Part shown: positions 5,637-55,686 of the stretch, one piece after another
Layout: each line of letters begins with the position of its first letter
How positions within the stretch are numbered: the stretch's first letter is position 1
Source of the DNA: Arthrobacter sp. SO5
GTDB lineage: Bacteria > Actinomycetota > Actinomycetes > Actinomycetales > Micrococcaceae
Direction: 5' to 3'
DNA length: 64,000 nucleotides
NCBI RefSeq assembly: GCF_020532805.1
Contig: NZ_MQTQ01000053.1
Coordinates: 51,228-115,227 of the forward strand
The notes under the pieces: model-generated
Database searches by the model: none
What the model was told of the DNA's origin: nothing
The model's input: only the letters and a program-made list of their open reading frames with translations
Program-made: the position numbers and the translations under genes

Positions 5637-5701
5637 GCAACGCGGGGTCACTTAGCGCCCGAAAATGACGGTTGGATGGGCGCTAAGTGACCCCGCGTTG
5701 C
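5637..5701. repeat. Dispersed intergenic palindrome, copy 1 of 6
   Basis: Two perfect 24-bp arms (5637-5660 and 5678-5701, outer edge GCAACGCGGGGTCACTTAGC) enclose a 17-base spacer. The element sits 35 bases downstream of the mutase stop codon and could end its transcript. The same outer edge recurs at 18644, 20727, 40625, 44776 and 55622. Confidence 0.9.
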
Positions 5702-5736
5702 GGTTGGATCCGGACCAGGTACATGGAGCTCGCGCT

Positions 5737-7491
5737 CTAGAGTCCCAATGCCTCGCGGACGTCCGCCAGGACGCTGTCGAGCGCGGCACGGGCCTCGTGC
5801 CGCGCCGCCGGCAGTTCCGCGGCGGAACCGACGCTGCGGATGACTTCCAGGTAGCACTTGAGCTTAGGCTCCGTCCCGCTGGGGCGGATGATGATGCGGC
5901 TGAGGTCCCGCGTGAGGTACAGCAGGCCCTCGGTCGGCGGGAGGTTTTCGCTGCCTTCGGCCAGGTCGGTGACCGTCTCGACGGCGGAGCCGCCGAAGGA
6001 CTCCGGCGGGCTGACGCGCAGCCGGTTCATCATGGCATCCAGCAGGCCCAGGTCCGCGACCCGGATGCTGAGCTGGTCGCTCGCGTGCAGGCCATGCACA
6101 AGGGACAGCTCATCCAGGGTGTCGAAGATCGTCTTTTCCGCGGCCTTCGCCGTTGCCGCGAATTCGGCGATCAGCACGGCCGCGGAGATCCCGTCCTTGT
6201 CCCGGACCAGGGACGGCGCGACGCAGTAGCCCAGCGCCTCCTCGTAGCCGTAAAGCAGGCCGGGGACGCGTGCGATCCATTTGAAGCCTGTGAGGGTTTC
6301 CTCGTGGGCGTAGCCCGCCGCGGCAGCGATGCGCGCGAGCAGCCGCGAGGACACGATCGAATTCGCGAAGACCCCTCCCGGAGCCTCGCCGCCGGCTGCA
6401 TCTTCACCGGCTGCCAGCCGGGCCACCATGTGGGCGCCCAGCAGGGCGCCGACCTCGTCCCCGCGCAGCATCCGCCAGGCTCCGGTGTCCGGATCCTTGG
6501 CGGCCACCGCGGCGCGGTCGGCGTCGGGGTCGTTGGCGATGACGATGTCCGCGTCCACGCGGGCCGCCGTTTCGAGGGCCAGGTCCAGGGCGCCCGGTTC
6601 TTCGGGGTTCGGGAAGTTCACGGTGGGGAAGTCGGGGTCCGGCTCGGCCTGTTCGGTGACCAGCGTGACGTCGGTGAAGCCGGCTGCGTGCAGGACGGCC
6701 ACCGCCGTCTCCCCGCCGACGCCGTGCATGGGGGTGAGGACAATCTTCAGCTCGCGCGCCGGGAAGTGCTCCGGAACGGCCAGGGCCGCGACGGCGGACT
6801 CGTAATCGGTGGCAATGGAGCGCTCCAGCACGGTCCACCCCTGGGTCGCGAGGGCAATGGTGTCCAGCGCGCCGACGGCGTCGATCTTGGCGGCGATCCG
6901 GGCGTCGTACGGCGCCACGATCTGCGCGCCGCGGCCACTGTCCTCGACGGCGTGCCGGCCCAGGTAGACCTTGTAGCCGTTGTCCTGCGGCGGGTTATGG
7001 CTGGCCGTGACCATCACGCCGCCGTCGCAGTCCAGGGCCCGCACCGCGTAGGCGAGCAGCGGCGTGGGGAGCGCAGCCGGCATCAGGAACGTCTCGACGC
7101 CGGCGGCGGTGAGGATGGCCGCGGTTTCCTCGGCGAAAATCTCGGAGTTGTAGCGGGCGTCATAGCCGACGACGGCGCGCGGCCGGGTGCCGGGGGCGGC
7201 GTGGCCCACGGCGTCGGTCAGGAAGGCCGTGAAGCCGGCTGCGGCGCGGCGCACCACGACGCGGTTCATCCGGTTCGGGCCCGGGCCCAGGGCAGCCCGG
7301 AGGCCGGCGGTACCAAACTGCAGGGTGCCACTGAAGCTGTCCGCCAGCTCCTGGCGGGCCGCTGCAACGCCGTCGTCCGCAAGCTGGATCAGCCCGCTGA
7401 GGGTGGCGGCGGTGGCGGGGTCCGGGTCCTGTGCGGCCCACGTGCGGGCTTCGTTCAGGAGGCGGCTGAGTTCGGCATCAGGAGACGTCAT
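5737..7491 (-). CDS. Phosphomannomutase/phosphoglucomutase family phosphosugar mutase
   Basis: A 584-residue alpha-D-phosphohexomutase family enzyme. VTASHNPPQDNGYKVY holds the phosphoserine loop, NDPDADR the metal-binding loop, GYEEALGYCV the sugar-binding loop and RPSGTEPKLKCYLE the phosphate-binding loop, so all four family signatures are intact. The length and the nearby punA match the actinobacterial pmmB-deoD arrangement, suggesting ribose-1-phosphate or hexose-1-phosphate isomerisation. I chose the ATG at 7491 over an in-frame TTG at 7536: no ribosome-binding site fits either, but TAGCTT lies exactly 7 bases upstream of the ATG, indicating a leaderless message. Confidence 0.92.
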   Translation of the reverse strand: MTSPDAELSRLLNEARTWAAQDPDPATAATLSGLIQLADDGVAAARQELADSFSGTLQFGTAGLRAALGPGPNRMNRVVVRRAAAGFTAFLTDAVGHAAPGTRPRAVVGYDARYNSEIFAEETAAILTAAGVETFLMPAALPTPLLAYAVRALDCDGGVMVTASHNPPQDNGYKVYLGRHAVEDSGRGAQIVAPYDARIAAKIDAVGALDTIALATQGWTVLERSIATDYESAVAALAVPEHFPARELKIVLTPMHGVGGETAVAVLHAAGFTDVTLVTEQAEPDPDFPTVNFPNPEEPGALDLALETAARVDADIVIANDPDADRAAVAAKDPDTGAWRMLRGDEVGALLGAHMVARLAAGEDAAGGEAPGGVFANSIVSSRLLARIAAAAGYAHEETLTGFKWIARVPGLLYGYEEALGYCVAPSLVRDKDGISAAVLIAEFAATAKAAEKTIFDTLDELSLVHGLHASDQLSIRVADLGLLDAMMNRLRVSPPESFGGSAVETVTDLAEGSENLPPTEGLLYLTRDLSRIIIRPSGTEPKLKCYLEVIRSVGSAAELPAARHEARAALDSVLADVREALGL

Positions 7492-7498
7492 GGGTACC

Positions 7499-7504
7499 AA
7501 GCTA
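7499..7504 (-). promoter_or_regulatory. -10 element of the mutase gene (leaderless)
   Basis: TAGCTT on the minus strand is separated from the ATG at 7491 by 7 bases (GGTACCC). The surrounding GGCAC-TAGCTTG-GTACC sequence is shared with the punA promoter. Confidence 0.6.
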
Positions 7505-7599
7505 GTGCCATTTGCCGCGGAAACCTCCCCCGACAAGCGAGAGGAGCCTCACAGGTCCGCAACGCCGGGACCTGGGACGGTAGCTGCCCCGCGAGGAGG

Positions 7600-7640
7600 C
7601 ACTTCACGGCAATGCCGAACGCCGGCATTGCCGTGAAGTG
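7600..7640. repeat. Perfect intergenic palindrome (second family)
   Basis: Perfect 18-bp arms CACTTCACGGCAATGCCG (7600-7617) and its complement (7623-7640) enclose a 5-base loop. The element lies between two divergent promoters, those of the mutase and the Rrf2 gene, so it is not a simple terminator. Confidence 0.85.
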
Positions 7641-7663
7641 TCCCCCCGAAGGCGGCCGGGCCC

Positions 7664-7693
7664 TTGACACCCATTTTTCCGGACACGTAACGT
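7664..7693 (+). promoter_or_regulatory. Leaderless sigma-70-type promoter of the Rrf2 gene
   Basis: TTGACA at 7664-7669 and TAACGT at 7688-7693 are spaced by 18 bases. Seven bases then lead to the ATG at 7701, so the transcript should begin at the start codon. This is the best complete promoter in the window. Confidence 0.75.
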
Positions 7694-7700
7694 CTGGAAT

Positions 7701-8183
7701 ATGAAGACGGGCCGTGGGGTGGAGTGGGCGGTGCACAGCTGCGTCAACATGGCGTGGACACCGGCAGGGGAAGCAGTCAATAGCGCCCGGCTGGCGGCGT
7801 ACTACAAGCTCCCCGGCGCCTACCTGAACAAACAGCTCCAGGCGCTGGTGCACGCCGGCGTCCTGGACTCAGTTTCGGGCCCCCGCGGCGGCTTCCACCT
7901 GGCCCGCCGGCCGGAGCACATCACGGTGCTTGACGTCGTCCTGGCACTTGAGGGTCCGGAGCCGGCGTTCCGCTGTGAAGGCATCCTGGGCAATGTCCCT
8001 GATGCGGATCAGGAACAGAACTACGTCCGCACGTGCCTCATCTCGCAGACCATGCGCCAGGCCGAGCTCGCGTGGCGGCAGGCGCTGGCGCGGCAGACCA
8101 TCGCCGGGATCGCCGACTCGATGGAACGCCGGTTCCCGCAGGACAGGGTAAAAGCCGTGAGCTACCTGGCCGCAGGGACCTAG
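7701..8183 (+). CDS. Rrf2 family transcriptional regulator
   Basis: A 160-residue regulator. The N-terminal winged helix includes EWAVHSCVNMAW, the helix-turn-helix LAAYYKLPGAYLNKQLQALV and the wing GPRGGFHLARRPEHITVLDVVLALEG, all typical of Rrf2/IscR/NsrR proteins. Cysteines are present near residues 14, 92 and 112, but the compact three-cysteine iron-sulfur cluster motif of NsrR and IscR is not, so the signal sensed is uncertain. It is transcribed divergently from the mutase gene and convergently with punA. A leaderless promoter precedes it. Confidence 0.88.
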   Translation: MKTGRGVEWAVHSCVNMAWTPAGEAVNSARLAAYYKLPGAYLNKQLQALVHAGVLDSVSGPRGGFHLARRPEHITVLDVVLALEGPEPAFRCEGILGNVPDADQEQNYVRTCLISQTMRQAELAWRQALARQTIAGIADSMERRFPQDRVKAVSYLAAGT

Positions 8184-8184
8184 G

Positions 8185-8208
8185 CCCCGCGGGACTGAAC
8201 CCGCGGGG
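8185..8208. terminator. Bidirectional terminator between Rrf2 gene and punA
   Basis: A 9-bp perfect stem CCCCGCGGG / CCCGCGGGG with an ACTGAA loop lies in the 33-base gap between two convergent genes. There is no long T-run, so efficiency is uncertain. Confidence 0.6.
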
Positions 8209-8216
8209 ACCCGGCC

Positions 8217-9035
8217 TCAGAGCTTGGCGATGATCTCCGCGAGCAGCTTGGAGATGCGCGGACCTGCGGCTTCACCGGCTTCGAGGACTTCCTCATGGCT
8301 CAGCGGCACCGGGCTAATGCCTGCGGCGAGGTTGGTCACGAGCGAAATGCCGAAGACTTCCATGCCGGCGTGCCGGCCGGCGATGGCTTCCAGCGCCGTG
8401 GACATGCCCACCAGGGATGCGCCGATGTGCTTGGCGTACTGCACCTCGGCAGGAGTCTCGTAATGCGGTCCGGTGAACTGGGCGTACACACCCTCATCGA
8501 GGGAGGGATCGACCTCGCGGGCCAGGGCACGGATCCGTGCGGAATACAGGTCGGTGAGGTCCACGAACGTGGCGCCCTCGAGCGGGGAGGTGGCGGTGAG
8601 GTTGATGTGGTCGCTGATCAGCACGGGCGTGCCGGGGTTCCAGTCCTCGTTCAGGCCGCCACAGCCGTTGGTCAGGACCAGCGTCTTGCAGCCGGCCGCC
8701 GCGGCCGTGCGCACGCCGTGGACCACGGCGCGGACTCCCTTGCCCTCGTAGTAGTGGGTGCGGGCGCCCAGGACCAGGGCCCGCTTGCCGTCCTTGGTGA
8801 GCACGGAGCGGATGGTGCCCACGTGCCCCACCACCGAGGGGGAGGAGAATCCGGGGACCTCGTCCGCGGACAGGGTGGCGGTGGTCTGGCCGATCAGATG
8901 GGCGGCGTCGCCCCAGCCCGAACCAAGTACCAGGGCCACGTCGTGGGTATCAACCCCCGTCTCCTCGGCTATGTAGGCGGCGGCGTCGCGGGCCGCGTTG
9001 AAGGGATCCGAGTTCAGGAATTCTGTATGACTCAC
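8217..9035 (-). CDS. punA: Purine-nucleoside phosphorylase
   Basis: A 272-residue trimeric-type (class II) purine nucleoside phosphorylase. It converts purine nucleosides plus phosphate into the base and (deoxy)ribose 1-phosphate. LVLGSGWGDAA is the phosphate-binding loop. LTNGCGGLN, FTGPHYETPAEV and GMSTALEAI are base- and sugar-binding segments seen in the family. The GTG at 9035 is preceded by TAGCTT 6 bases upstream and by no ribosome-binding site, indicating a leaderless message. The mutase gene upstream on the same strand, separated by the Rrf2 gene, handles the sugar-phosphate product. Confidence 0.95.
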   Translation of the reverse strand: MSHTEFLNSDPFNAARDAAAYIAEETGVDTHDVALVLGSGWGDAAHLIGQTTATLSADEVPGFSSPSVVGHVGTIRSVLTKDGKRALVLGARTHYYEGKGVRAVVHGVRTAAAAGCKTLVLTNGCGGLNEDWNPGTPVLISDHINLTATSPLEGATFVDLTDLYSARIRALAREVDPSLDEGVYAQFTGPHYETPAEVQYAKHIGASLVGMSTALEAIAGRHAGMEVFGISLVTNLAAGISPVPLSHEEVLEAGEAAGPRISKLLAEIIAKL

Positions 9036-9041
9036 TGGTAC

Positions 9042-9047
9042 AAGCTA
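9042..9047 (-). promoter_or_regulatory. -10 element of punA (leaderless)
   Basis: TAGCTT on the minus strand, 6 bases before the GTG start at 9035, within the same GGCAC...TAGCTTG.GTACC context as the mutase promoter. Confidence 0.55.
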
Positions 9048-9140
9048 TCGTGCCGGTGCCGTGATGCCCAGCACCGCACGCGGCACGGTGCACGCCCCGA
9101 TTCTTGGAGCGCCGGGGCGGATAGGGGACAATAGACGATT

Positions 9141-10556
9141 GTGACTACGCATCCCGATTTCAGCTCCCCCCGCATTGCAATCCTCGGAGGCGGCCCCGGT
9201 GGCTACGAAGCCGCCATGGTCGCAGCCTCACTGGGGGCCCAGGTAACCATCATCGAACGCGCGGGGCTCGGCGGCTCGGCGGTGCTGACCGACGTCGTAC
9301 CGTCCAAAACGCTGATCGCGACGGCGGACCTCATGACCCGCGTGGGCGAGGCCGGTGAGCTGGGCGTGAAGTTCGACGTCGACGGCGGCGAGTTCGCCCC
9401 GGTCATGCGTGCTGACCTCAAGCACATCAACGACCGCCTGCTGGGCCTGGCACGCAAGCAGTCCGACGACATCCGCGCAGGCCTGGAAAACCAGGGCGTC
9501 CGGATCCTCATCGGCTCCGGCAAGATGCTGGACAACCACACCATCGAGGTCCTCACCATCGACGGCACCGAAACCGTCGAGGCCGACGCGATCCTGCTGG
9601 CCGTCGGCGCCCACCCGCGTGAGCTCCCCACCGCGCGGCCGGACGGCATCCGCATCCTGAACTGGGCCCAGATCTACAACCTGGACGAGCTGCCGGAGGA
9701 CCTCATCGTGGTGGGCTCCGGCGTCACCGGGGCAGAGTTCGCCTCCGCGTACAACGGCCTGGGCTCCAAGGTCACGCTGATTTCCAGCCGCGACCGGGTG
9801 CTGCCGGGCTCGGACACCGACGCCGCCGAGGTCCTGGAGGGCGTCTTCGAACGCCGCGGCCTTAAAGTGCTGTCCCGCTCGCGCGCCGAGACGGTGGAAC
9901 GCACTGAAGACGGCGTCGTCGTCACCCTCGGGGATGGCTCCACCGTGACCGGCAGCCACTGCCTCGTCTGCGTCGGCTCCATCCCGAACACTGACGGGAT
10001 CGGCCTCGAGGAGGCCGGCGTGGCCGTCACCGAGAGCGGCCACATCAAAGTCGACGGCGTCTCCCGGACCACCGCGCCGAACATCTACGCGGCCGGCGAC
10101 TGCACCGGGGTCCTCGCGCTGGCCTCCGTCGCCGCCATGCAGGGCCGGATCGCGATTGCCCACTTCCTGGGCGACAGTGTGATGCCGCTCAAGCTGCACC
10201 AGGTCGCCTCGAACATCTTCACCTCGCCCGAGATCGCCAACGTGGGCGTCTCCGAAGCCGAGATCGAGTCCGGCAAGTATCAGGCCGACGTCGTCAAGCT
10301 GTCCCTGAAGAGCAACGCCCGCGCCAAGATGCGCAACCACCGGGACGGCTTCGTCAAGATCTTCGCCCGCAAGGGCTCGGGCACCGTGATCGGCGGCGTC
10401 GTCGTGGGCCCGAACGCCTCCGAACTGATCTTCGCCATCTCCCTCGCGGTGACCCAGAAACTGCACGTCGACGACGTCGCCAGCACGTTTACGGTGTACC
10501 CGTCACTTAGCGGTTCCATCTCCGAGGCCGCACGGCGCCTGCACGTCCATATGTAG
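9141..10556 (+). CDS. lpdA: LpdA-like NAD(P)H:quinone reductase lacking the redox disulfide
   Basis: A 471-residue flavoprotein disulfide reductase-fold enzyme with two dinucleotide-binding motifs (ILGGGPGGYEA near residue 14; VVGSGVTGAEFASA), a conserved IYAAGDCTG FAD motif and a C-terminal dimerisation domain. The usual GGTCLNVGC disulfide site reads GGSAVLTDV, so both cysteines are replaced (A47, V52). The catalytic HPT of dihydrolipoamide dehydrogenases reads VYPSLSG. This matches the mycobacterial Rv3303c (LpdA) type, reported as a quinone reductase, rather than a lipoamide dehydrogenase. Adjacency to punA and the mutase mirrors the mycobacterial order. The start is GTG. Confidence 0.88.
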   Translation: MTTHPDFSSPRIAILGGGPGGYEAAMVAASLGAQVTIIERAGLGGSAVLTDVVPSKTLIATADLMTRVGEAGELGVKFDVDGGEFAPVMRADLKHINDRLLGLARKQSDDIRAGLENQGVRILIGSGKMLDNHTIEVLTIDGTETVEADAILLAVGAHPRELPTARPDGIRILNWAQIYNLDELPEDLIVVGSGVTGAEFASAYNGLGSKVTLISSRDRVLPGSDTDAAEVLEGVFERRGLKVLSRSRAETVERTEDGVVVTLGDGSTVTGSHCLVCVGSIPNTDGIGLEEAGVAVTESGHIKVDGVSRTTAPNIYAAGDCTGVLALASVAAMQGRIAIAHFLGDSVMPLKLHQVASNIFTSPEIANVGVSEAEIESGKYQADVVKLSLKSNARAKMRNHRDGFVKIFARKGSGTVIGGVVVGPNASELIFAISLAVTQKLHVDDVASTFTVYPSLSGSISEAARRLHVHM

Positions 10557-10704
10557 CCTTTCGTCGGCGGGCCGCGCAGGTCCGGCGGTGCACGCCCACC
10601 GGCTCGCATGAACGCGGCGAAAATTCTCACTGTCCACCGGGTATTTTCGGCCGCCTACGGCCCTAGGATGAGTCTCGTCATTCGCACTCATTTAAGGGGA
10701 CTAC

Positions 10705-11178
10705 ATGAGCTATCCGCAGCAGCAACCCGCGTTCTCGCCCGCGACCGGCGAAACACCGCTCTGGGCGCCGCTCTACGGGGCCAGCTTCCAGCAGGCCGTC
10801 CAGCGATTCTTCAAAAAGTACACCACGTTCTCCGGCCGGGCCAGCCGCAGCGAGTACTGGTGGTGGGCCCTGGTGTCCTTCGCAGTCAGCATCGTCATCA
10901 ATGTCTTGACCAGCACCGGTATGACGACTGCAGCGTCCGGGGCAACCGCTCTGGGCCCCGGTGCCGTTGTCGGACTCATCCTTGGTGTGATCTGGGTGCT
11001 GGCGACGATCGTTCCGTCCCTGGCCCTCCTGGCCCGGCGCCTGCATGACGTAAACCTCAGCGCCTGGCTGATCCTGGTGGTCCTGGTGCCGTTCCTCGGC
11101 GGCCTGGCGCTCTTGGTGATGACAATCCTGCCAACCAACCCGGCCGGCCAGAGGTTCGACCAGCCCTCCGGCTACTAG
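10705..11178 (+). CDS. DUF805 family membrane protein
   Basis: A 157-residue protein. FFKKYTTFSGRASRSEYWWW is the hallmark entry of DUF805, followed by three hydrophobic helices near residues 52-70, 86-112 and 121-142, and by LARRLHDVNLSAW, also conserved in the family. The N-terminus is Gln/Pro-rich and cytoplasmic. An AAGGGG ribosome-binding site precedes the ATG, and a TAGGAT -10 element lies about 35 bases upstream. The family function is unknown. The gene is monocistronic, with a strong terminator behind it. Confidence 0.88.
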   Translation: MSYPQQQPAFSPATGETPLWAPLYGASFQQAVQRFFKKYTTFSGRASRSEYWWWALVSFAVSIVINVLTSTGMTTAASGATALGPGAVVGLILGVIWVLATIVPSLALLARRLHDVNLSAWLILVVLVPFLGGLALLVMTILPTNPAGQRFDQPSGY

Positions 11179-11228
11179 CAAAACGCCTCCCGAACGCAAG
11201 CAGTCGGTTCTTGCATGGGAAAGCGGTG

Positions 11229-11258
11229 AACCCCTGCCCGGGAATCCGGGCAGGGGTT
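11229..11258 (+). terminator. Terminator hairpin after the DUF805 gene
   Basis: A perfect 13-bp stem AACCCCTGCCCGG (11229-11241) and its complement (11246-11258) with a GAAT loop. Confidence 0.75.
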
Positions 11259-11324
11259 CTGCCCATTAAGCGCCGGGGACGTTGGACCCTAGCCTCTCCA
11301 CCGCCAGTTCGGACACACTGAACC

Positions 11325-11876
11325 ATGGCCAACATCTACATCCCGTACGGGACCGTCGAAGGACAGACAGCCCAGATTGCTGAGTACATGGCCGAGTTGA
11401 TCCGTTCGCACGGGCACCAGGCAGAGACGGCGGACCTCAAACATGCCGGCGACACCCTTCCGGCCGGCTACGACGGCGTGATCGTGGCGGCCTCCGTTCA
11501 CATGGGCAACCACGAGGCGTATGTCACGGACTTTGTTCAGAAGAACCGGAGCGAGCTCGAGCGGCTCCCGTCTGCCTTGGTTTCGGTCAGCATGTCCGCC
11601 CACGGAGACCAGGAAAATGCGGAGGGCTACGTGGAGAAGTTCAAGGACCAAACGGGATGGCGGCCTTCGCACGTCGGGTTGTTCGCCGGTGCGCTGCTCT
11701 ACACGCACTACGGGTTTATCAAGAAGCACGTGATGAAGAAAATTACCCGCGACAAAGGCTCCCAGGACACGGACACTACCCGCGACTACGTCTACACCGA
11801 GTGGGACGGCGTCCGGCGCTTCACGGAGGATTTCCTGGCCGGGCTGGCTACTCTGCAGGCTCAGGAACAGGCATAG
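11325..11876 (+). CDS. HemG-like flavodoxin-domain protein
   Basis: A 183-residue protein with a flavodoxin fold. PYGTVEGQTAQIAEYMAE is the FMN phosphate-binding loop and VIVAASVHMGNHEAYVTDFV resembles the second flavin loop. The C-terminal GETDT-like region (SQDTDTTRDYVYTEWDGVRRF) is characteristic of the menaquinone-dependent protoporphyrinogen oxidase HemG family. Actinobacteria usually make heme by the coproporphyrin route, so a role as a general FMN-dependent reductase is as likely as one in heme synthesis. Its 3' end overlaps the convergent gene by 16 bases. Confidence 0.8.
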   Translation: MANIYIPYGTVEGQTAQIAEYMAELIRSHGHQAETADLKHAGDTLPAGYDGVIVAASVHMGNHEAYVTDFVQKNRSELERLPSALVSVSMSAHGDQENAEGYVEKFKDQTGWRPSHVGLFAGALLYTHYGFIKKHVMKKITRDKGSQDTDTTRDYVYTEWDGVRRFTEDFLAGLATLQAQEQA

Positions 11877-18643: not shown

Positions 18644-18710
18644 AGCAACGCGGGGTCACTTAGCGCCCATCCGGAGGGGAGTAATGGGCGGTAAGTGACC
18701 CCGCGTTGCT
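18644..18710. repeat. Dispersed intergenic palindrome, copy 2 of 6
   Basis: Arms 18644-18670 and 18684-18710 pair at 26 of 27 positions. The 67 bases match copy 3 (20727-20793) at 66 positions, in the same orientation and with the same internal mismatch. The two copies bracket the cytochrome b cassette. Confidence 0.9.
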
Positions 18711-18824: not shown

Positions 18825-18992
18825 ATGAGCGGATGGCTTGTCGCAGGCGCTGGCACGCTGGGTGTCGGAACCTATTTTGGCTGGGATGGCTTCACCATCC
18901 AGTCGGGAAACCTAGTGGTGATCGTGGTGATGATCATCCTGTTCGTTCTGGCCCTGGTCGTTCCGTTTCCCGGCGGGAAGCGGCGCAAATGA
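18825..18992 (+). CDS. Small membrane protein at the head of the cytochrome b cassette
   Basis: A 55-residue ORF, MSGWLVAGAGTLGVGTYFG to PFPGGKRRK, with one strong transmembrane helix at about residues 28-48 and a basic C-terminus, so N-out/C-in is likely. Its TGA overlaps the ATG of the cytochrome b gene (ATGA), a sign of translational coupling and of a real gene. I do not recognise a family. By analogy with the small single-helix subunits of cytochrome complexes it may stabilise the assembly; this is inference. Confidence 0.7.
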   Translation: MSGWLVAGAGTLGVGTYFGWDGFTIQSGNLVVIVVMIILFVLALVVPFPGGKRRK

Positions 18993-19747
18993 GCGCCCAG
19001 ACCAAACCGGCACAGGGGTTGCCGGCGGACGACGACGCGCACACCTGGACCGGCAAGGCCCGCAGGTGGATGCTCGGGAAGCTCCCCCCGGACAAGCTCT
19101 TGCCCGAGGACCAGCCGAGCTATGTCATGTCGTGGGCCTATGTCTTCGGCATGGGGGCTATCGCTTCGCTGCTCTGGATCATCGTTTCCGGGGCCGTGCT
19201 GGGATTGAACGGACCCCAGTGGTACCACGTGTCCTCACTGGGCAGCTTCGTCAACAGCACCCACTTGTGGAGCGTGGAACTGTTCTTCATCTTCATGGTG
19301 GTGCACCTGTGGCTGAAGTTCTGGATGGCGGCCTGGCGCGGTGGGCGGGTTCTGACCTGGGTCACGGGGATGCTCTCCTTCGTCGTCTCCATCGTGGCTG
19401 CTTTCACCGGGTATCTGCTTCAGACGAACTTCGATTCCCAGTGGATTGCCTTCGAAGCCAAGGACGCGCTGAACTCCGTGGGAGTGGGCGCCTGGTTCAA
19501 CGTGGCCAACGTCGGACAGATCTTCGTGTGGCACATCACCTTGCTGCCCCTGGCAGTGGGCGCCGTGGTGGTCCTGCATGTCCTGCTGGTCCGGGTCCAC
19601 GGGGTTGTCCCACCGCTGGAGGCCGCCGAGGGCGACGCCCAACTGCTCGACGCCAGCCCGGCGCCCGGCCATCCTCCGGGGCCCAGCCATCCTCTAGAGT
19701 CCGCCAACTCTCAGGATTCCGCCGAACCTAGGGACGCAGCGCGATGA
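18989..19747 (+). CDS. Cytochrome b N-terminal-domain (b6-like) protein
   Basis: A 252-residue membrane protein with four transmembrane helices (about residues 48-70, 95-112, 124-146 and 178-203). Two histidine pairs, H92/H106 (spacing 14) and H182/H197 (spacing 15), fit the bis-heme ligands of cytochrome b; the 15-residue second spacing is the b6 rather than the bc1 pattern. AFTGYLLQTNFDSQW resembles the helix C to cd-loop of the family. The C-terminal 45 residues are Pro/Ser-rich and disordered. Start and stop overlap both neighbours (ATGA), so the three genes form one operon. No cytochrome c or Rieske gene is adjacent. Confidence 0.85.
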   Translation: MSAQTKPAQGLPADDDAHTWTGKARRWMLGKLPPDKLLPEDQPSYVMSWAYVFGMGAIASLLWIIVSGAVLGLNGPQWYHVSSLGSFVNSTHLWSVELFFIFMVVHLWLKFWMAAWRGGRVLTWVTGMLSFVVSIVAAFTGYLLQTNFDSQWIAFEAKDALNSVGVGAWFNVANVGQIFVWHITLLPLAVGAVVVLHVLLVRVHGVVPPLEAAEGDAQLLDASPAPGHPPGPSHPLESANSQDSAEPRDAAR

Positions 19748-20700
19748 CCACCAGGAGCAGCAGCACCACCTCGTGGCGCAGGAAGGACGACATTGCCGGC
19801 AGGCCGTGGATCGGCCGTGTCCGCGAATACGACCTTCTCAAAGAACTCACCATTGGCGTTGTGGTGGTCGGACTGCTTGTGCTCGGGGTGTCCGCCATCT
19901 TCGGGTCACCCGATGAGCCCAGCGTGAGTCTCAAGGCGTGGGCAAGTGCCGCCCCGGCGGATTTCGTCGCCACGGCCTCAAAAGAACTCGGCGGCACAAG
20001 CGACACCGCAGGTTACGGGCCGCCCTATAGCTCAACTCAGGACGCCGCGCAGACAATCGGTCCCATCGACCTCCAAAGTCTTTCGGGGGTCCGTCTTCCG
20101 ATCGAAACGGCCAATGACTTCGTGATTGCGCCGCTTGAGACGTTGCCGTCCCCGCCGGCCGCCGTTGCCGAGTGGACGGCTGCGACGGATCAACAACGCT
20201 CCGACTGGACAGCCGCTTATTCCGACGCTCTTGCGGCTGCCCCTGACAACGACCCGGCCAACGTGGCCGACGCAGACTATGGCCCGGTTCCGGCATTGAC
20301 CGGTGCTCTGCTGGACATGGCACGGCAGGGCACGCTGGACGGCGTGCTGCAGAGCGGCGGAAACTTCTACAACATGGACTACACCCGGAGCCTCCTGTTT
20401 CTGGGAGACGGCAGCTATTTTCCGGATCTTGCGGCCAGCCAGCACCTCACCGGCGATCAGTGGGGCGTGATGAACGAGACGGGCGACACGCCAGGGCAGT
20501 CCTGGCTCTGGCTCTTCTCGCTCCTCTACCAGGTGGAACCATTCAAGTCCTCGCCGAGTGTCGACGCCCTGGTGGTGGTCACCATGGTTGTCCTGACTGC
20601 GTTGCTGACCCTCCTGCCGTTCATCCCGGGGCTGAGGGCCCTGCCACGGAAGATTCCCCTGCATCGCTTGATCTGGAAGGACTACTACCGCAATCGCTGA
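19744..20700 (+). CDS. Two-helix membrane protein of the cytochrome b cassette, unknown function
   Basis: A 318-residue protein with helices at about residues 35-53 and 273-293 and roughly 215 residues between them, probably outside the membrane. It contains no cysteine at all, so it binds no c-type heme or cysteine-ligated cluster, and it has no PEWY quinol-oxidation motif. The end IPLHRLIWKDYYR loosely recalls the C-terminal end of subunit IV/QcrB-type proteins; this is a weak resemblance. The ATGA overlap with the cytochrome b gene shows coupling. It may be the extracytoplasmic partner replacing subunit IV. Confidence 0.7.
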   Translation: MTTRSSSTTSWRRKDDIAGRPWIGRVREYDLLKELTIGVVVVGLLVLGVSAIFGSPDEPSVSLKAWASAAPADFVATASKELGGTSDTAGYGPPYSSTQDAAQTIGPIDLQSLSGVRLPIETANDFVIAPLETLPSPPAAVAEWTAATDQQRSDWTAAYSDALAAAPDNDPANVADADYGPVPALTGALLDMARQGTLDGVLQSGGNFYNMDYTRSLLFLGDGSYFPDLAASQHLTGDQWGVMNETGDTPGQSWLWLFSLLYQVEPFKSSPSVDALVVVTMVVLTALLTLLPFIPGLRALPRKIPLHRLIWKDYYRNR

Positions 20701-20726: not shown

Positions 20727-20793
20727 AGCAACGCGGGGTCACTTAGCGCCCATCCGGAGGGGATTAATGGGCGGTAAGTGACCCCGCGTTGCT
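20727..20793. repeat. Dispersed intergenic palindrome, copy 3 of 6
   Basis: Arms 20727-20753 and 20767-20793, 26 of 27 paired. It is a near-exact direct copy of 18644-18710 and closes the cytochrome b cassette, 26 bases after its last stop codon. Confidence 0.9.
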
Positions 20794-40624: not shown

Positions 40625-40693
40625 AAGCAACGCGGGGTCACTTGGCGCCCATCGTGGCGTCCCGGATGGGCCGTACGTGACCCTTCGTTGCTT
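40625..40693. repeat. Dispersed intergenic palindrome, copy 4 of 6 (degenerate)
   Basis: Arms 40625-40653 and 40665-40693 pair at 23 of 29 positions. The left arm keeps the family edge GCAACGCGGGGTCACTTGGC, while the right arm has diverged. It fills the gap between two convergent genes. Confidence 0.85.
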
Positions 40694-44753: not shown

Positions 44754-44775
44754 CACCCCACGCACCAGCAGCAAG

Positions 44776-44838
44776 CAAAGCGGGGTCACTTACGGCCCGT
44801 TCCGGACCTCCGGACGGGCCGTAAGTGACCCCGCGTTG
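44776..44838. repeat. Dispersed intergenic palindrome, copy 5 of 6
   Basis: Arms 44776-44800 and 44814-44838 pair at 24 of 25 positions, with a CCGG/CCGG inner stem. It lies between the transporter and gatC, both on the plus strand. The inner segment differs from copies 1-3 (ACGGCCCGT instead of AGCGCCCAT) but still pairs. Confidence 0.88.
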
Positions 44839-44931
44839 TTTGTCGCAGTCCTTCCAGGTGCCGGAGAGTAACGGCAGTTCAACCCACGTAGACTGGGACG
44901 GAAAATAATCCATACCTTGCAGGGGAGATCC

Positions 44932-49210: not shown

Positions 49211-49216
49211 AGTCTA
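49211..49216 (-). promoter_or_regulatory. -10 element of the LysR gene (leaderless)
   Basis: TAGACT on the minus strand, 7 bases before the ATG at 49203. Confidence 0.55.
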
Positions 49217-49350
49217 AGCACGAGCCAAAGCTAAATCGTCGATTGAGAAGAATCTGTTTGTGCTAATGCTTTATCTCCGGGTCTAATGGGGTGAGTTGTC
49301 GCACACGTGCCGCCGCGAAGGCCGCGGCCCCATCACAGTTAGGCAGGCCC

Positions 49351-50397
49351 ATGAAGGCTCTCTACAAGGCCGGCGCGCACGCAGGATTCGAGCTGGTGGA
49401 CCGTCCCGAGCCGGAGACCGGCCCCGGAGACGTCAAGATCCGCGTCATCACCACCGGCATTTGTGGCACCGACCTGCATATCCAGGCCTGGGACGCCTGG
49501 GCTCAGGGCATCATCAACGCCCCGCTGATCGCAGGCCACGAGTTCTACGGCGAAGTCGTCGAGACCGGCGGGGACGTCCTGGACGTCCGGGTCGGGGACC
49601 GCGTCTCCGGCGAAGGCCACATCGTCTGCGGGATCTGCCGCAACTGCCGGGCCGGCCGCAAGCAGATGTGCATCAACACCGTCAGCGTCGGCGTGCAGCG
49701 CGACGGCGCGTTCGCCGAATACGTCGTCATCCCCGAAACCAACGTCTGGGTCCACCAGGACCCCTCCGTGACGCCGGAACTCGGTGCCATCTTCGACCCC
49801 TTCGGCAACGCCGTCCACACCGCGCTCAGCTTCCCGCTCGTCGGCGAGGACGTCCTGATCACCGGCGCGGGCCCCATCGGGCTCATGGCGATCGCCGTCG
49901 CACGCCACGCCGGCGCGCGGAAGATCGCCATCACGGACATCTCCGCCCCGCGGCTGGCGCTGGCCCGGGCCCTCGGCGTCGACCTCGCGATCGACGTCTC
50001 GAAGATGCGCGTCAAGGACGCCCAGCGTGAACTGGGCATGCGCGAGGGGTTCGACATCGGCATGGAAATGTCGGGACACCCCACGGCACTGCCTGAGATG
50101 ATCGAGAACATGAACCACGGCGGCCGGATCGCGATGCTGGGACTGCCCAGCCAGTCCATCGACATCGACTGGGGCAAAGTGGTCACGCATATGCTGACCA
50201 TGAAAGGCATCTACGGCCGCGAAATGTTCGAGACCTGGTACGCCATGAGCGCCATGCTGTCCTCCAGCCCGGTCCTGCACGCCAACATCTCGGCCGTCGT
50301 GACGGACACCCTGCCCGCCACGGACTGGGAAAAGGGCTTCGAGATCGCCCGCGCCGGCGTCGGCGGCAAGGTGGTCCTCGACTGGACCTGCTTCTAA
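49351..50397 (+). CDS. tdh: L-threonine 3-dehydrogenase
   Basis: A 348-residue zinc alcohol dehydrogenase-fold enzyme that oxidises threonine to 2-amino-3-ketobutyrate with NAD+. [11 protein letters not shown] carries the catalytic zinc cysteine, [10 protein letters not shown] the GHE motif and [15 protein letters not shown] the structural zinc cysteines. [18 protein letters not shown] is the NAD loop. [14 protein letters not shown] is specific to threonine dehydrogenases. I chose the ATG at 49351. It forms an operon with kbl 50 bases downstream. Confidence 0.95.
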
Positions 50398-50447
50398 CCC
50401 GCCACCGTTCCGGCCCACCGACCCCACCAGCTGAGGAGCCCACCGCA

Positions 50448-51662
50448 ATGTATTCAGCCATCAAGGACCAGTTGCAGCACGAACTCGAAGAGATCCGCAA
50501 CGCCGGCCTGTTCAAGACCGAGCGGCACATTGATTCGCCCCAGGCCAACCGCGTCAAGGCCGGCCGGATCGGCGAGTCCGGTGCGGACGTCCTGAACTTC
50601 TGCGCCAACAACTACCTCGGCCTCGCGGACCACCCGGAGATCATCGCAGCCGCCAAGACGGCCATGGACGAGCGCGGGTTCGGCATGGCCAGCGTGCGCT
50701 TCATCTGCGGCACCCAGGACCTGCACCTGGCCTTGGAAAAGCGCGTCTCGCAGTTCCTCGGCACCGAGGACACCATCCTGTTCTCCAGCTGCTTCGACGC
50801 CAACGGCGGCGTGTTCGAATCTCTCTTCGGCCCGGAAGACGCCGTCATCTCCGACGCGCTGAACCACGCCTCGATCATCGACGGCATCCGGCTCTGCAAG
50901 GCCCAGCGCTTCCGCTACGCCAACCAGGACATGGCGGACCTCGAAGCCAGGCTGGTCGAGGCCACCACGCAGGAGAACCCGGCCCGCCGCAAGATCATCG
51001 TCACCGACGGCGTCTTCTCGATGGACGGCTTCCTCGCCCCGCTCGAGGCCATCTGCGACCTTGCCGAGAAGTACGACGCCATGGTCATGGTGGACGATTC
51101 CCACGCCGTCGGCTTCATGGGAGCCACCGGGGCCGGCACTCCGGAGCACGCCGGCGTCTCGGAACGCGTGGACATCTACACCGGCACCTTCGGCAAGGCC
51201 CTGGGCGGCGCCTCCGGCGGCTACGTCTCCGGCCGCCGCGAGGTTGTGGCCATGCTCCGCCAGAAGGCGCGCCCGTACTTGTTCTCCAACTCACTCGCCC
51301 CGGCGATCGTGGCCGCCACGCTCAAGGCACTGGACCTCGTGGAGGGCTCCGGCGAACTGCGCAGCCGGCTCTTCGCCAACGCGGAGCTCTTCCGGAACCG
51401 GATGAGCGAGGAAGGCTTCGAGCTGCTTCCCGGCGAACACGCCATTGTCCCGGTCATGTTCGGGGACGCCGTCATGGCCGCGAAGGTGGCCGATGCCATG
51501 CTGCACCACGGCGTCTTCGTGACCGCGTTCAGCTACCCGGTGGTACCCAAGGGTGCGGCCCGGATCCGCGTCCAGCTCTCCGCCGCGCACAGCGCCGAAG
51601 ACGTGGAGTCCTGTGTCCGGGCCTTCGTGCGCAGCCGCGAGACGGTGGCCGCCAACTCGTAG
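50448..51662 (+). CDS. kbl: 2-amino-3-ketobutyrate CoA ligase
   Basis: A 404-residue PLP enzyme of the alpha-oxoamine synthase family. It splits the Tdh product with CoA into glycine and acetyl-Co[15 protein letters not shown] is the N-terminal signature, [11 protein letters not shown] supplies the PLP-binding Asp/His, and [14 protein letters not shown] carries the Schiff-base lysine K250. The ribosome-binding site is GAGGAG. It follows tdh and is co-transcribed. Confidence 0.96.
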
Positions 51663-51726
51663 GGCTCTGCCGCCCGCGGTGCGGAAAGTGCTGACGCGAC
51701 CTCCTGTCGGGTGCAAGGATGGAGGC

Positions 51727-52842
51727 ATGTCAGCTAAATACGATGTCGTGATCGTGGGCGGCGGAATTGCCGGCCTGTCCCTTGCCTCCGCCCTCGCCGG
51801 CAAATGCAGCGTGGCACTGGTCGAAGCCGAGCAGTCGCTGGGGTACCACACCTCTGCCCGCTCGGCCCGGCAGCTGATTCCCAGCTACGGGCCGCCGGTG
51901 GTCCGGGACCTGACCATGCGCACGCTGGACCTTATCGGCACCCGCGAGGGTACGCGGCCTGAACCTGTGCTCTCACCGCGCCGGTTCATGCTGATCGGCG
52001 ACGAGGACGCCGTCCAGCAGCAGGCCAGCGGCTTCATGCACCGGATCAGCCATGCCGAAGCCCTGAAAATCTGCCCGGCGCTCAGACCGGATTCCTTCTC
52101 CGCCGCCGGCCTCGACTCCGGATCCTTCGCCTGCAACGCGTCCTTGCTGCTGGAAGACCACCGGGAGTGGGCGGTGGAGGGCGGCGTGGACATCATCACC
52201 GGCGCGAAGGTCCACTCGGCGCAGCGGCTCGGCTCCGGCTGGGAGCTGGGCGCCGGGCAGGAAGGCATCCAGGCCGCCGTCGTGGTCAATGCCGCCGGCG
52301 CCTGGGCGGACGAATTCGCGGTGCTCAGCGGCGTCGAGAAGCTCGGGCTCCAGCCCTACCGCCGCACCGCCGCAATCGTCGACGTCGAGCATCCCCTCCC
52401 GCAGGGCTGCCCGATGGTGGCCGCCGCGGACGAAAGCTTCTACTTCCGGACGGACGGACGGCGTCAGGTGCTGATTTCCCCGTCCGAAGCCGTGCCGAGC
52501 GGCCCTGAGGACGCCCGGCCCCATCCGGGCGACATCGAGGCGCTGATCACCCGGCTCAACACCGTCACCACGATGGGGATCGGCGGTATCAGCCGGGCCT
52601 GGACCGGACTGCGGACCGAAGCCGCCGACGGCATCCCCGTGGTGGGGTTCGACGCCGAAGCCCCCGGATTCTTCTGGCTCGCCGGCCAGGGCGGCTACGG
52701 TTTCCAGACCTCGTCCGGCATCGCCGAACTGGCCGCCGGGCTGATCCTGGCGGGGCAGGGGACAGCCACCGGTGAAGCTGCCGGTCCGGCATCCCGGACA
52801 GCGGACGCGCTGGCGGCGACCCGCTGGTCCATCCGGCGCTGA
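51727..52842 (+). CDS. DauA-like FAD-dependent D-amino acid dehydrogenase
   Basis: A 371-residue DAO-superfamily flavoprotein. VVIVGGGIAGLSLASALAG is the FAD dinucleotide motif. GYHTSARSARQLIPSYGPP, LGLQPYRRTA, DESFYFRTDGR and FFWLAGQGGYGFQTS align well by eye with catabolic D-arginine dehydrogenase DauA. It would oxidatively deaminate a D-amino acid, passing electrons to the respiratory chain or oxygen. The ATG at 51727 is preceded by AAGGAT 6 bases upstream, a weak leaderless-type element. It lies between kbl and hutI, in an amino-acid catabolism neighbourhood. Confidence 0.82.
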   Translation: MSAKYDVVIVGGGIAGLSLASALAGKCSVALVEAEQSLGYHTSARSARQLIPSYGPPVVRDLTMRTLDLIGTREGTRPEPVLSPRRFMLIGDEDAVQQQASGFMHRISHAEALKICPALRPDSFSAAGLDSGSFACNASLLLEDHREWAVEGGVDIITGAKVHSAQRLGSGWELGAGQEGIQAAVVVNAAGAWADEFAVLSGVEKLGLQPYRRTAAIVDVEHPLPQGCPMVAAADESFYFRTDGRRQVLISPSEAVPSGPEDARPHPGDIEALITRLNTVTTMGIGGISRAWTGLRTEAADGIPVVGFDAEAPGFFWLAGQGGYGFQTSSGIAELAAGLILAGQGTATGEAAGPASRTADALAATRWSIRR

Positions 52843-52853
52843 AGAATGGACCC

Positions 52854-54059
52854 ATGAGCACCCTGATCACCAACATCGCCGAACTGATGACCCAGGACGC
52901 GGAACACCGCGTCCTCCGCGCAGCCGCCGTGGTGATCGAGGGCGAGCGGATCGCGTGGCTTGGTGCCGCCGAGGACGCGCCGGCCGCCGATGAGGCCGTC
53001 GACGCCGGCGGCCGGGCCCTGCTGCCGGGCTGGGTCGATTCCCATACGCACCTGATCTTCGCCGGGGACCGGACGGCGGAGTTCGAGGCCCGGATGGCGG
53101 GAGAGAGCTACAGCGCCGGCGGCATCGCCGTGACCACCGGCGCCACCCGGAGCACCAGCGATTTCGACCTCACCCGGCTGGCGATGGGCCGGGTGGCCGA
53201 GGCCGTCGCCCAGGGCACCACCTACCTCGAAACCAAGACCGGGTACGGCCTCGACGTCGAGAACGAGGCCCGCAGCGCCCGGATAGCCTCCACCGTGGCC
53301 GATGAGGTCACCTTCCTCGGCGCCCATCTGGTGCCCGCCGGGATGGACGCCGGAGAGTACACGGAGCTGGTCTGCGGGCCGATGCTATCCGCCGTCCGGC
53401 CGTTCGTGCGCTGGGCCGACGTCTTCTGCGAGCGGGGCGCCTTCACAGAGGACCAGTCCCGGCGCGTGCTCCGGGCCTGCAAGGACGCCGGGCTGGGCCT
53501 GCGGGTGCACGGCAACCAGCTCGGCGAGGGCCCCGGCGTGCGGCTCGCGGTCGAGTTCGGCGCCGCCAGCGTAGACCACGTGAACTACCTGTCCTCGGCG
53601 GACATCGACGCCCTCGCGGCGAGCTGGTCCGGCTGGGACGCGGGAACCGGCCGGCATGGAACCGTGGCGACCTGCCTGCCGGCCTGCGACCTGTCCACCC
53701 GCCAGCCCCTGGCACCGGGCCGGGAACTGCTCGACGCCGGCGTGCAGCTCGCGCTGGCGTCCAACTGCAACCCGGGCACCTCCTACACCAGCTCCATGGC
53801 GTTCTGCGTCACCACCGCGGTGCTGCAGATGCGGCTCAGCGTCCACGAGGCCGTCCGGGCCGCGACGTACGGCGGCGCGCTGGCCCTCGGCCGGGAGGCC
53901 GGGAACGACGCCGACGGCGAACGCGCGGTGGGCTCGATCGCCGTCGGACACCGCGCGGACCTGCACCTGCTCAAGGCGCCGTCCGCCACGCACCTGGCCT
54001 ACCGGCCCGGCATTCCGCTGACCCACGCCGTCTGGCGGGCGGGAGTGCGCGCACGCTGA
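52854..54059 (+). CDS. hutI: Imidazolonepropionase
   Basis: A 401-residue amidohydrolase that opens imidazolonepropionate to formiminoglutamate in histidine degradation. WVDSHTHLIFAGDRTAEFE gives the metal histidines and the family-specific continuation. GTTYLETKTGYGLD and LALASNCNPGTSYTSSM are diagnostic for HutI. No hutH, hutU or hutG lies in the window, so it is separated from the rest of the pathway. An AAGAAT 6 bases before the ATG could be the -10. Confidence 0.94.
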   Translation: MSTLITNIAELMTQDAEHRVLRAAAVVIEGERIAWLGAAEDAPAADEAVDAGGRALLPGWVDSHTHLIFAGDRTAEFEARMAGESYSAGGIAVTTGATRSTSDFDLTRLAMGRVAEAVAQGTTYLETKTGYGLDVENEARSARIASTVADEVTFLGAHLVPAGMDAGEYTELVCGPMLSAVRPFVRWADVFCERGAFTEDQSRRVLRACKDAGLGLRVHGNQLGEGPGVRLAVEFGAASVDHVNYLSSADIDALAASWSGWDAGTGRHGTVATCLPACDLSTRQPLAPGRELLDAGVQLALASNCNPGTSYTSSMAFCVTTAVLQMRLSVHEAVRAATYGGALALGREAGNDADGERAVGSIAVGHRADLHLLKAPSATHLAYRPGIPLTHAVWRAGVRAR

Positions 54060-54080
54060 ATCCGGAGTCAGCCCCGCCCG

Positions 54081-54761
54081 CTAGAAGACCATCGGCGGGG
54101 CATCCAGGACGGTCTCATCGACGCGGCGGGCCTCCCACTGACTGAACGCCTTGTCGAGGTCGTATTTGCCGTCCGCGCTGCGGTACAGGGTGCGGACCTC
54201 CGCGTTGTCCGGGTTGTTGAGGGATTCGAAGTACTCCACCGACCAGTGGAACCAGCGCATGCAGAACAGCCGCATGGTCAGCCCGTGCGTCACGAACAGC
54301 GCGTTGGGGGCGTAGTCCGGCCGGGACCAGTGCCGGTAGAGGGTTTCCATGAAGGAGGACACCCGGTCATAGACATCGGAGCCGGACTCGCCTTCCCGGA
54401 AGCGGTAGAAGAAGTGGCCGTAGGCATTGCGGAGCTCTTTCTGGTCCTCGATCTCCCCGGCGATCTGGAAGTTGGCCCAGTCCTGCTCCCGCAGCCTCGG
54501 CTCCTCGATGACCCGCTCCACCAGCGGACCGAGGTTGAGCGCCTCGAGGGTCTGGTAGGCGCGCAGGTAGGGCGAGACGTACACACAGGCCGGCCGGCCG
54601 TCCAGGAGCCGCCGGACCTGCTCGCCGGCCGTCCGGGCCTGTTGCACGCCGAGTTCGGTCAGCGGGATCCGGTAGTCGGGCACCCGGTTGTAGATCGACG
54701 TGTCGGCGTTGGCGGCAGACTGGCCGTGCCGGATCATGATGATTTTTCCGGGCGCACTCAT
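54081..54761 (-). CDS. Histidine phosphatase (phosphoglycerate mutase-like) family protein
   Basis: A 226-residue phosphatase. IIMIRHGQSAANAD is the RHG catalytic motif, REQDWANFQ carries the conserved glutamate region and LFVTHGLTMRLFCMRW the second catalytic histidine. The GEIEDQKELRNAYGHFFYRF segment is typical of the actinobacterial/plant subgroup. The substrate is unknown. The ATG at 54761 has TATGCT 8 bases upstream. It converges with hutI and diverges from the CPBP gene. Confidence 0.88.
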   Translation of the reverse strand: MSAPGKIIMIRHGQSAANADTSIYNRVPDYRIPLTELGVQQARTAGEQVRRLLDGRPACVYVSPYLRAYQTLEALNLGPLVERVIEEPRLREQDWANFQIAGEIEDQKELRNAYGHFFYRFREGESGSDVYDRVSSFMETLYRHWSRPDYAPNALFVTHGLTMRLFCMRWFHWSVEYFESLNNPDNAEVRTLYRSADGKYDLDKAFSQWEARRVDETVLDAPPMVF

Positions 54762-54848
54762 AAGACCCAAGCATAGGCCCGGGCGCGGCGCATCCCCGGC
54801 AACGGGACGGTTCAGGCAACTGCCGGAAACTACGGGCAAGATAGGAAC

Positions 54849-55604
54849 ATGTTCGTTCCTTCCCGCCGCCGGCTGCGGATAGAAGTCTGGATTGTCCTGG
54901 GCCTGTCACTGGGACAGTCAGCGGTCTATTCGATCGTGCAGCTGCTGGACAAGATGACCCGGGCGCCGCTGGCGGAGGGCACGTCCACACTGAACCGCTC
55001 GCAAAGCCCCCGCGAGTACTTTGACCTGACCTACCAGCTGCTGGACATCTTCTTCGCGCTGGTGCCGGTGGCCTTGGTGATCTTCCTTCTGTCCGAGCAC
55101 CGCACGGCAGCCGCGGCCTGCGCGAAGCTGGGCTTCAATTTTGCCCGGCCCGGCAAGGACCTGCTGCAAGGGGTGGGCCTGGCGGCGCTGATCGGGATCC
55201 CCTCGCTGGGGCTCTACGCCGCCGGACGGGCGCTCGGGATCACCACCGCCATCATTCCCAGCGGACTCGACACTTATTGGTGGACCGTGCCGGTGCTCAT
55301 CCTCTCCGCGATCCGGCACGCGGTTGTGGAGGAAGTGATTGTGGTGGGCTACCTGCTGGACCGGCTGCCCAAGCTCGGCTGGAGCCTGCCGCTGGCGATC
55401 TTCGCGAGTGCCATGCTGCGCGGCAGCTACCACCTGTACCAGGGCTTCGGGCCGTTCATCGGCAACGCGGTCATGGGAGTGGTCTTCGCGCTGGTTTACA
55501 CCCGGACCCGCCGGGTGATGCCGCTGGTAGTCGCCCACGCCCTGCTGGACATTGTCGCGTTCGTCGGCTTCAGCCTCTTCGGCAAGGCGATCGGCCTGGG
55601 CTGA
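54849..55604 (+). CDS. CPBP family intramembrane metalloprotease
   Basis: A 251-residue membrane protein with about seven or eight helices. The Rce1/CAAX-protease-like (CPBP) motifs are intact: E161-E162 in VVEEVIVVGYL, RGSYHLYQG with H195, and HALLD with H230. Bacterial members are linked to processing of peptides or to self-immunity. There is no bacteriocin-like gene nearby. CAAGAT 6 bases before the ATG is a weak -10 candidate. It ends just before palindrome copy 6. Confidence 0.9.
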   Translation: MFVPSRRRLRIEVWIVLGLSLGQSAVYSIVQLLDKMTRAPLAEGTSTLNRSQSPREYFDLTYQLLDIFFALVPVALVIFLLSEHRTAAAACAKLGFNFARPGKDLLQGVGLAALIGIPSLGLYAAGRALGITTAIIPSGLDTYWWTVPVLILSAIRHAVVEEVIVVGYLLDRLPKLGWSLPLAIFASAMLRGSYHLYQGFGPFIGNAVMGVVFALVYTRTRRVMPLVVAHALLDIVAFVGFSLFGKAIGLG

Positions 55605-55621
55605 ATCGGCACCAGCACAAA

Positions 55622-55686
55622 GCAACGCGGGGTCACTTCGCGCCCATCCGGAGGCTCCGGACCGGCGCGATGTGACCCCGCGTTGC
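55622..55686. repeat. Dispersed intergenic palindrome, copy 6 of 6
   Basis: Arms 55622-55644 and 55664-55686 pair at 22 of 23 positions, with an inner CCGG/CCGG stem. It lies between two convergent genes and shares the GCAACGCGGGGTCACTT edge with copies 1-4. Confidence 0.88.

Follow-up and report, generated by a model that had tools for sequence, protein, structure and literature searches.

REPINs are explained by one enzyme family, the RAYTs (transposases associated with repetitive extragenic palindromes, REP). As described in excerpts of two reports, a REPIN/RAYT system (REPtron) comprises dispersed non-coding palindromes and a usually single-copy, vertically inherited gene with copies alongside; genomes with the gene hold more copies and those without it retain some (PMC8049555, PMC8266576). 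In the excerpt of one of them, no evidence was seen for mobility of tnpA-REP (PMC8266576). According to part of a third report, AbiEi and Rv2827c control their own expression through pairs of 23-bp inverted repeats to which they bind, with a spacing of 3 or 13 bp (PMC7319586). The present analysis concerns palindrome A, found six times in a stretch of 64,000 nucleotides of Arthrobacter sp. SO5 (contig NZ_MQTQ01000053.1, positions 51,228 to 115,227), which as a whole is called the window.

Palindrome A is a dispersed family of fixed length (65 bp) whose copies also bracket the gene for a predicted nuclease, which is predicted to bind the arms and is likely to drive their spread. The best reading, a probable one, is that the palindromes are mobile in the manner of REPIN/RAYT but depend on an unrelated nuclease, with predicted binding, cutting and copying.

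The bracketed gene for a predicted nuclease and its own palindromes

At several loci two copies of palindrome A lie 1047-1052 bp apart with a single gene between them, the gene and its two flanking palindromes forming a cassette of ~1.2 kb. The product (~306 residues) consists, by predicted fold, of an AbiEi-like half and a half resembling Vsr and the EDxHD homing endonucleases, in which E, D, H and D residues are invariant. Pfam, applied to 63 members, returns MTES_1575 in 33, DUF559 in 18 and no other family. At the clade A loci read, the neighbours are genes for an AlkA-like DNA glycosylase and an acyl-CoA synthetase-like protein. In the window genome the nucleases of clades A and C (C55:102649-103763, L145, and C50:17133-18250) are each split over two reading frames, which reflects either a frameshift or an error of assembly.

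Relatives of the gene occur in 61/61 genomes of the genus set. Those of at least 67% identity (19 genomes; in two pieces in the window genome, G000, and partial in G051) are the ones bracketed by palindrome A, and a recognised palindrome stands on both sides in 15/17 of the clade A loci fetched. All 19 genomes with the A protein hold 9-76 palindrome copies, while 18 of the 42 others carry any, up to 31 (Fisher 8e-6), and copy number is higher with the A gene (Mann-Whitney 6e-8); these statistics ignore phylogeny, the species not being independent, and gene presence was judged among the matches listed, where short fragments may be missed.

Palindrome and protein diverge together, and the protein clades have their own palindromes. 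Clade B (55-60% identity) is bracketed by GTTGCYCTATCA-N37-TGATAGRGCAAC, on both sides in 8/10 loci and on one side in 2; this palindrome has the N37 spacing of A and shares with it the core TCACTT.TGG.CCC. Clade C (33-39% identity) has the palindrome CCCAACTGACTCGCA... and near variants (both sides in 26/30, one side in 4), and clade D (33-39% identity) has CGATTGCTCCG..., on both sides in 4/5, the fifth having different outer letters at the 3' side. These palindromes are dispersed as well: among 61 genomes B occurs in 29 (up to 31), C in 33 (up to 79) and D in 46 (up to 31). Across 66 cassettes, protein identity correlates with palindrome similarity (Spearman 0.59, reached by 0/2000 permutations), half-site similarity being 0.49-0.50 when protein identity is below 62% and 0.99 when it exceeds 90%. 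The dispersed copies match the cassette of their own genome: the word CTTATGG, present in the cassette of G039, is found in 20/32 half-sites of that genome and is missing from the top eight words in the window genome. With start codons assigned by script, the upstream palindrome lies mostly 62-66 bp ahead of them in clades A and C, and for most of B and D the distance is 40-54 bp. The downstream palindrome in most cases begins no more than ~12 bp from the stop codon; that of clade C usually has an overlap of 6-15 bp with the end of the gene.

The pairing extends beyond the genus. A family profile (E <= 1e-20) finds homologs in 148/296 Actinomycete genomes, three of the 148 being within the genus. 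Among the 30 loci returned, the 27 outside the genus show a 5' palindrome in 23 cases, a 3' palindrome in 22 and both in 20, and 18 of these 20 pairs share at least 12/14 bases. Markov control sequences gave both palindromes in 0/81 cases, and 200 other genes from the loci fetched for palindrome A gave 31 with a 5' palindrome, 72 with a 3' one, 7 with both and 0 matching. The letters differ outside the genus (e.g., GTTGATCATGGAGAA in several). The 20 stretches taken from one such genome, together 400 kb out of 7.16 Mb, contain 5 paired copies, four of 61 bp and one of 59 bp, against 0 in the control. With somewhat more reserve, the AbiEi-EDxHD nucleases, widespread in Actinomycetes, can be proposed as a new class of bacterial mobile elements, each recognising and multiplying its own fixed-length palindrome. 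The cassette would be the autonomous member and the solo palindromes the non-autonomous ones, in a lifestyle convergent on that of REPIN/RAYT, with a double-strand DNA nuclease in place of the HuH transposase.

Sequence, pairing and distribution of palindrome A

The pattern CAACGCGGGGTCA-N37-TGACCCCGCGTTG, with up to 3 mismatches in the 26 arm positions, finds 61 copies in the window genome (3.83 Mb, 104 contigs). In the same genus, 36/60 genomes carry palindrome A, with 2 to 76 copies each; it was found in 0/38 genomes from other genera of the order, and the reversed control pattern gave 0 matches in the same search. The named holders among the matches listed are Arthrobacter, Pseudarthrobacter, Paenarthrobacter and one Micrococcaceae metagenome-assembled genome. 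A phage origin of the palindromes was considered and rejected, with 0 exact matches in viral contigs and, for the nuclease, one distant phage match and 6 plasmid matches, the latter all below 60%. The sole phage match is a homolog of 30.7% identity and 98% coverage on a 6.7-kb faecal phage record (MT837503.1, 4971-5963).

The symmetrised half-site of 131 copies reads (A-rich) G CAACGCGGGGTCA CTTA[C/G][C/G] GCCCAT and is followed by an unconserved 13-base centre. These copies come mostly from loci fetched by an exact 13-base arm (at least 114 stretches), and consequently the invariance of positions 2-14 is partly due to data selection. Two samples are less biased: all 50 copies listed (of 61) in the window genome, where 3 mismatches were allowed, have 0 arm mismatches, and all 32 recognised copies adjoining nucleases, found via the gene in a search that tolerated as many as 8 mismatches, show 0-2. 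The arms would be nearly invariant because the nuclease must read them. In orthologous copies with both flanks aligned, arm identity is 0.92-1.00 (partly by ascertainment) and centre identity 0.08 to 1.00, with flanks 67-96% identical. Exact arms are found in at least 81/105 copies of three genomes with an A nuclease (G000, G032, G039) against 13/31 in G002, G058 and G051, where it is absent or broken; this comparison (Fisher 3e-4, computed with 82/105) is limited to genomes with copies listed, leaves out G008 (8 of 46 listed, all exact), includes G000 with its frameshifted nuclease, and is not used as support.

A first-pass annotation of this DNA had pointed to the inner arms of copy 5 (ACGGCCC) as changed while still pairing. 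The word itself is not unusual, since CTTACGG is the commonest inner word of the window genome (19/100 half-sites of the 50 copies listed). Pairing is kept beyond chance genome-wide. The inner arms pair at 0.818 of positions, compared with a mean of 0.747 when the halves are re-dealt (maximum of 2000 deals 0.80), and the centre has no such excess (0.41 vs 0.39 with re-dealt halves). Conserved pairing, whose lack the annotation had named as a ground for refutation, is borne out by the half-site and the inner-arm excess. It is proposed that the inner arms co-vary because a stem or dyad must be kept, and the centre would drift freely.

All six inverted repeats that had been reported in the window are present, with starts within 0-2 bases of those claimed, and the length given as 60-70 bp proves to be exactly 65 bp in every one (Table 1). 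When as many as 3 mismatches are allowed, the edge word GCAACGCGGGGTCACTT has 12 matches in the window versus 0.23 expected from shuffles; one side of copy 4 has 3 mismatches to it. The predicted single-stranded DNA folds of the six range from -19.7 to -37.9 kcal/mol (z -3.2 to -11.5), copy 4 being the weakest. A probable ortholog of copy 1 was found in Pseudarthrobacter albicanus (L034), where a single flank aligns and the identity is 0.92 for the inner part and 0.92 for the centre, and copy 5 has orthologous sites in two other genomes (L046, L094) with a centre identity of 1.00. Rfam at gathering score gives no family match at any palindrome copy in the window, and its sole matches there are two SAM-IV riboswitch aptamers, listed in Table 1 with the genes that follow them.

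Table 1. Palindrome A copies and riboswitch aptamers in the window.
Feature	Position	Strand	Length	Context
Copy 1	5637-5701		65 bp	Family A palindrome; 35 bp beyond the stop codon of a phosphoglucomutase-like gene (5737-7491, -)
Copy 2	18645-18709		65 bp	64/65 identical to copy 3, direct orientation
Copy 3	20728-20792		65 bp	Between two convergent gene ends
Copy 4	40627-40691		65 bp	Between convergent gene ends, stop codons at 2 and 11 bp
Copy 5	44775-44839		65 bp	21 bp beyond a stop codon, tandem genes
Copy 6	55622-55686		65 bp	Between convergent ends of an Rce1-like gene and a glyoxalase-like gene
SAM-IV riboswitch aptamer	56609-56724	+		Ahead of a Cys/Met-metabolism PLP (pyridoxal phosphate) enzyme gene
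SAM-IV riboswitch aptamer	58212-58328	+		Ahead of an alpha/beta-hydrolase gene

Placement, mobility and rival explanations

Genes were called with a codon-usage script around 133 copies from the fetched loci and the window. The 118 copies that could be placed lie in convergent (67), tandem (43) and divergent (8) settings, the rest being at locus edges (10) or classed inside genes (5). Among the intergenic gaps of these loci that contain no element and measure 65 bp or more, 36 are convergent, 236 tandem and 121 divergent, so that 10.8 convergent copies would be expected. A stop codon lies within 30 bp in 95/118 copies and a start codon in 12/118; the median distance to the nearest stop codon is 11 bp, and of the tandem copies 36 lie closer to the stop and 7 to the start. 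The description of the repeats as lying between genes in all contexts is true of the six window copies, but the set of 133 is strongly biased to gene 3' ends.

The clade C cassette occupies four places: one in 22 genomes, a second in 5, a third in 2 and a fourth in 1. The flank join of the second place was sought in 60 genomes. It is contiguous in 14 (76-82% identity), 5 hold the cassette, and in the remaining 41, two of which were looked at, the flank halves are apart or one half only is found. Where both edges are readable, the cassette is an insertion of ~1.13 kb. At the clade A site, 30 loci were read from genomes without an intact A gene, and the two neighbours are within 0.9 kb in 16. 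Seven of these gaps measure 3-36 bp: five are traceless (G034, G046, G031, G041, G037), where the cassette may have been lost or never present, and two keep a partial palindrome end (G015, G019). In G051 (L200) the cassette is decaying: the C-terminal part of the nuclease alone is in open frame, and both palindromes are deleted with GCAACG left at each. The G015 scar likewise retains GCAACG.

The place of one solo copy, at L103:2805, is taken by 8 other bases in L139. Copies 2 and 3 of the window bracket a two-gene block (18989-20700), the first gene being cytochrome b-like and the second having no Pfam match. In 20 relatives the outer flanks of these copies are close together; G050 shows a single palindrome there without the intervening genes, and the other 19 lack palindrome A. 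To judge from the sequence, the G050 state looks as if the two-gene block had entered at the palindrome. A clean empty site for copy 3 was sought in the 20 relatives, and the junction bases do not align cleanly. At the orthologous junction, L251, L253, L255 and L256 have short arrays of another repeat (GGTGAGCGGGCG... and similar), like the short palindromes downstream of clade E nucleases.

The first-pass annotation had named fewer than about ten copies genome-wide, with no empty orthologous sites, as a result that would speak against a mobile family. With 61 copies, presence or absence at orthologous sites and conserved pairing, its interpretation as a miniature mobile element is supported. 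In the mechanism proposed here, two nuclease subunits would bind the two arms, by analogy with AbiEi on paired inverted repeats. The nuclease halves would make their cuts close to the palindrome ends, the outer GCAACG being retained in three scars, and the cut or extruded palindrome DNA may be copied into new sites, surviving mostly just past stop codons.

Several observations weigh against this mobile system. Binding, cutting and transposition are predicted, and Foldseek alone gives no match in the PDB at E <= 0.001 (best 3r3p, 4.4e-3). Cassette A is at the same place in 20/21 loci (the flank of the 21st being too short) and cassette B in 10/10; since nearly all sit at one locus, both are mostly inherited vertically. 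No flanking direct repeat was found at the three filled clade C sites with both edges readable, a view in which short or worn duplications could escape, the 14 empty sites being 76-82% identical. Homogenisation within the cassette, which was expected, was not found: the own pair is more alike than the nearest relative's in 17/57. Clade E (50-55% identity) has a 5' palindrome in 0/8 genes examined and short 3' ones in 5, with L182 having none, and of the 27 homologs from outside the genus 7 are without a palindrome on at least one side. The 18/42 genomes without the A protein still hold copies, and in the window genome the A and C proteins are split over two frames, yet the palindromes are pristine. 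Finally, the bias to 3' ends fits terminators too.

The rival that survives best, itself unlikely, regards the palindromes as operators of the AbiEi-like protein, which would regulate its own gene and others or organise the chromosome; selection would keep the palindromes and the protein would not spread them. The arms are near-invariant in place, a palindrome stands ahead of the start codon at the clade distances given above, and the paired 23-bp repeats of AbiEi and Rv2827c, as the excerpt describes them, resemble the two ~26-bp arms around a 13-bp centre (PMC7319586). However, the dispersed copies avoid promoters and gather at stop codons, a second copy follows the stop codon of the gene itself, and the copy number ranges from 0 to 76 between species. 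Moreover, copies 2 and 3 are nearly identical at different sites, and a Vsr-like half in which E, D, H and D are invariant is not required of a regulator.

That the palindromes are an intrinsic terminator working in both directions, shared among the copies and both spread and homogenised by ordinary recombination, with a secondary nuclease association, is quite improbable, and this role would not suffice by itself. This role, which the first-pass annotation had offered as an alternative, fits the convergent excess and the position just past stop codons, as well as a GC-rich stem with a short run of mostly T after it (mirrored positions 0 to -3). The T-run is nevertheless short and mixed with G, neither the near-invariant 13-base outer arm nor the fixed 65-bp length is needed for termination, and the paired nuclease does not follow from it; in other families of the class, homologs of the gene are flanked on either side by palindromes with different letters.

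Least probable are miniature inverted-repeat transposable elements (MITEs) that belong to an insertion sequence with a DDE transposase at another place in the genome, with the nuclease cassette as mere cargo: inverted repeats of fixed length that come and go between orthologous sites suit them, but the three readable filled sites lack a direct repeat, all examined loci (17 A, 10 B, 30 C, 5 D) have at least one cognate palindrome and most have two, and protein clade and palindrome go together.

Significance and comparison with known systems

A search of open-licence literature found no title or abstract start on this nuclease-palindrome pairing, and an earlier description elsewhere is possible. 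No other mobile element is known to rely on a nuclease of this kind alone. If true, a second, unrelated enzyme with its own palindromes (several clade-specific pairs in the genus and more outside) would show that the lifestyle arose repeatedly. Proteins now named DUF559, very-short-patch-repair or endonuclease domain-containing would also gain an assignable function. Recognition is directly testable because the predicted target of each nuclease adjoins its gene, and the many matched nuclease-palindrome pairs constitute a natural library of DNA specificities.

Insertion-sequence MITEs resemble these palindromes in being short, of fixed length, terminally inverted and non-coding; in contrast to them, no DDE transposase gene lies between the palindromes and no target-site duplication was seen at the three filled clade C sites. 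With the EDxHD homing endonuclease I-Bth0305I (Vsr fold) the protein has in common a predicted Vsr-like catalytic fold that includes E, D, H and D, but the present gene stands by itself between palindromes and its N-terminal half is AbiEi-like; neither an intron nor an intein was noticed, none having been looked for. With the AbiE type IV toxin-antitoxin system there is in common a predicted two-domain DNA-binding protein of AbiEi type. Here, however, it is fused to a Vsr-like half, the palindromes are dispersed genome-wide, and the AbiEii nucleotidyltransferase toxin partner is not present at the clade A loci read, the check being confined to that clade.

The REPIN label suggested at first pass is not supported because the bracketed gene encodes an AbiEi-like and Vsr-like protein, not a Y1/HuH RAYT (TnpA-REP), and the half-site lacks the GTAG tag; neither GTAG nor CGTC is in the consensus GCAACGCGGGGTCACTTA[C/G][C/G]GCCCAT. 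Membership in RAYT/REPIN was rejected on these grounds, which concern the bracketed gene, a RAYT elsewhere in the genome not having been searched for. The copies also differ in being one fixed-length palindrome of two ~26-base arms, and the clade C cassette is found at four places, whereas the excerpted report shows no evidence of tnpA-REP mobility (PMC8266576). The likeness to REPIN/RAYT lies in the organisation: hairpin-forming palindromes are dispersed over the genome, a usually single-copy, vertically inherited gene has copies adjoining it, and the genomes that bear the gene are richer in copies while those without it hold some.

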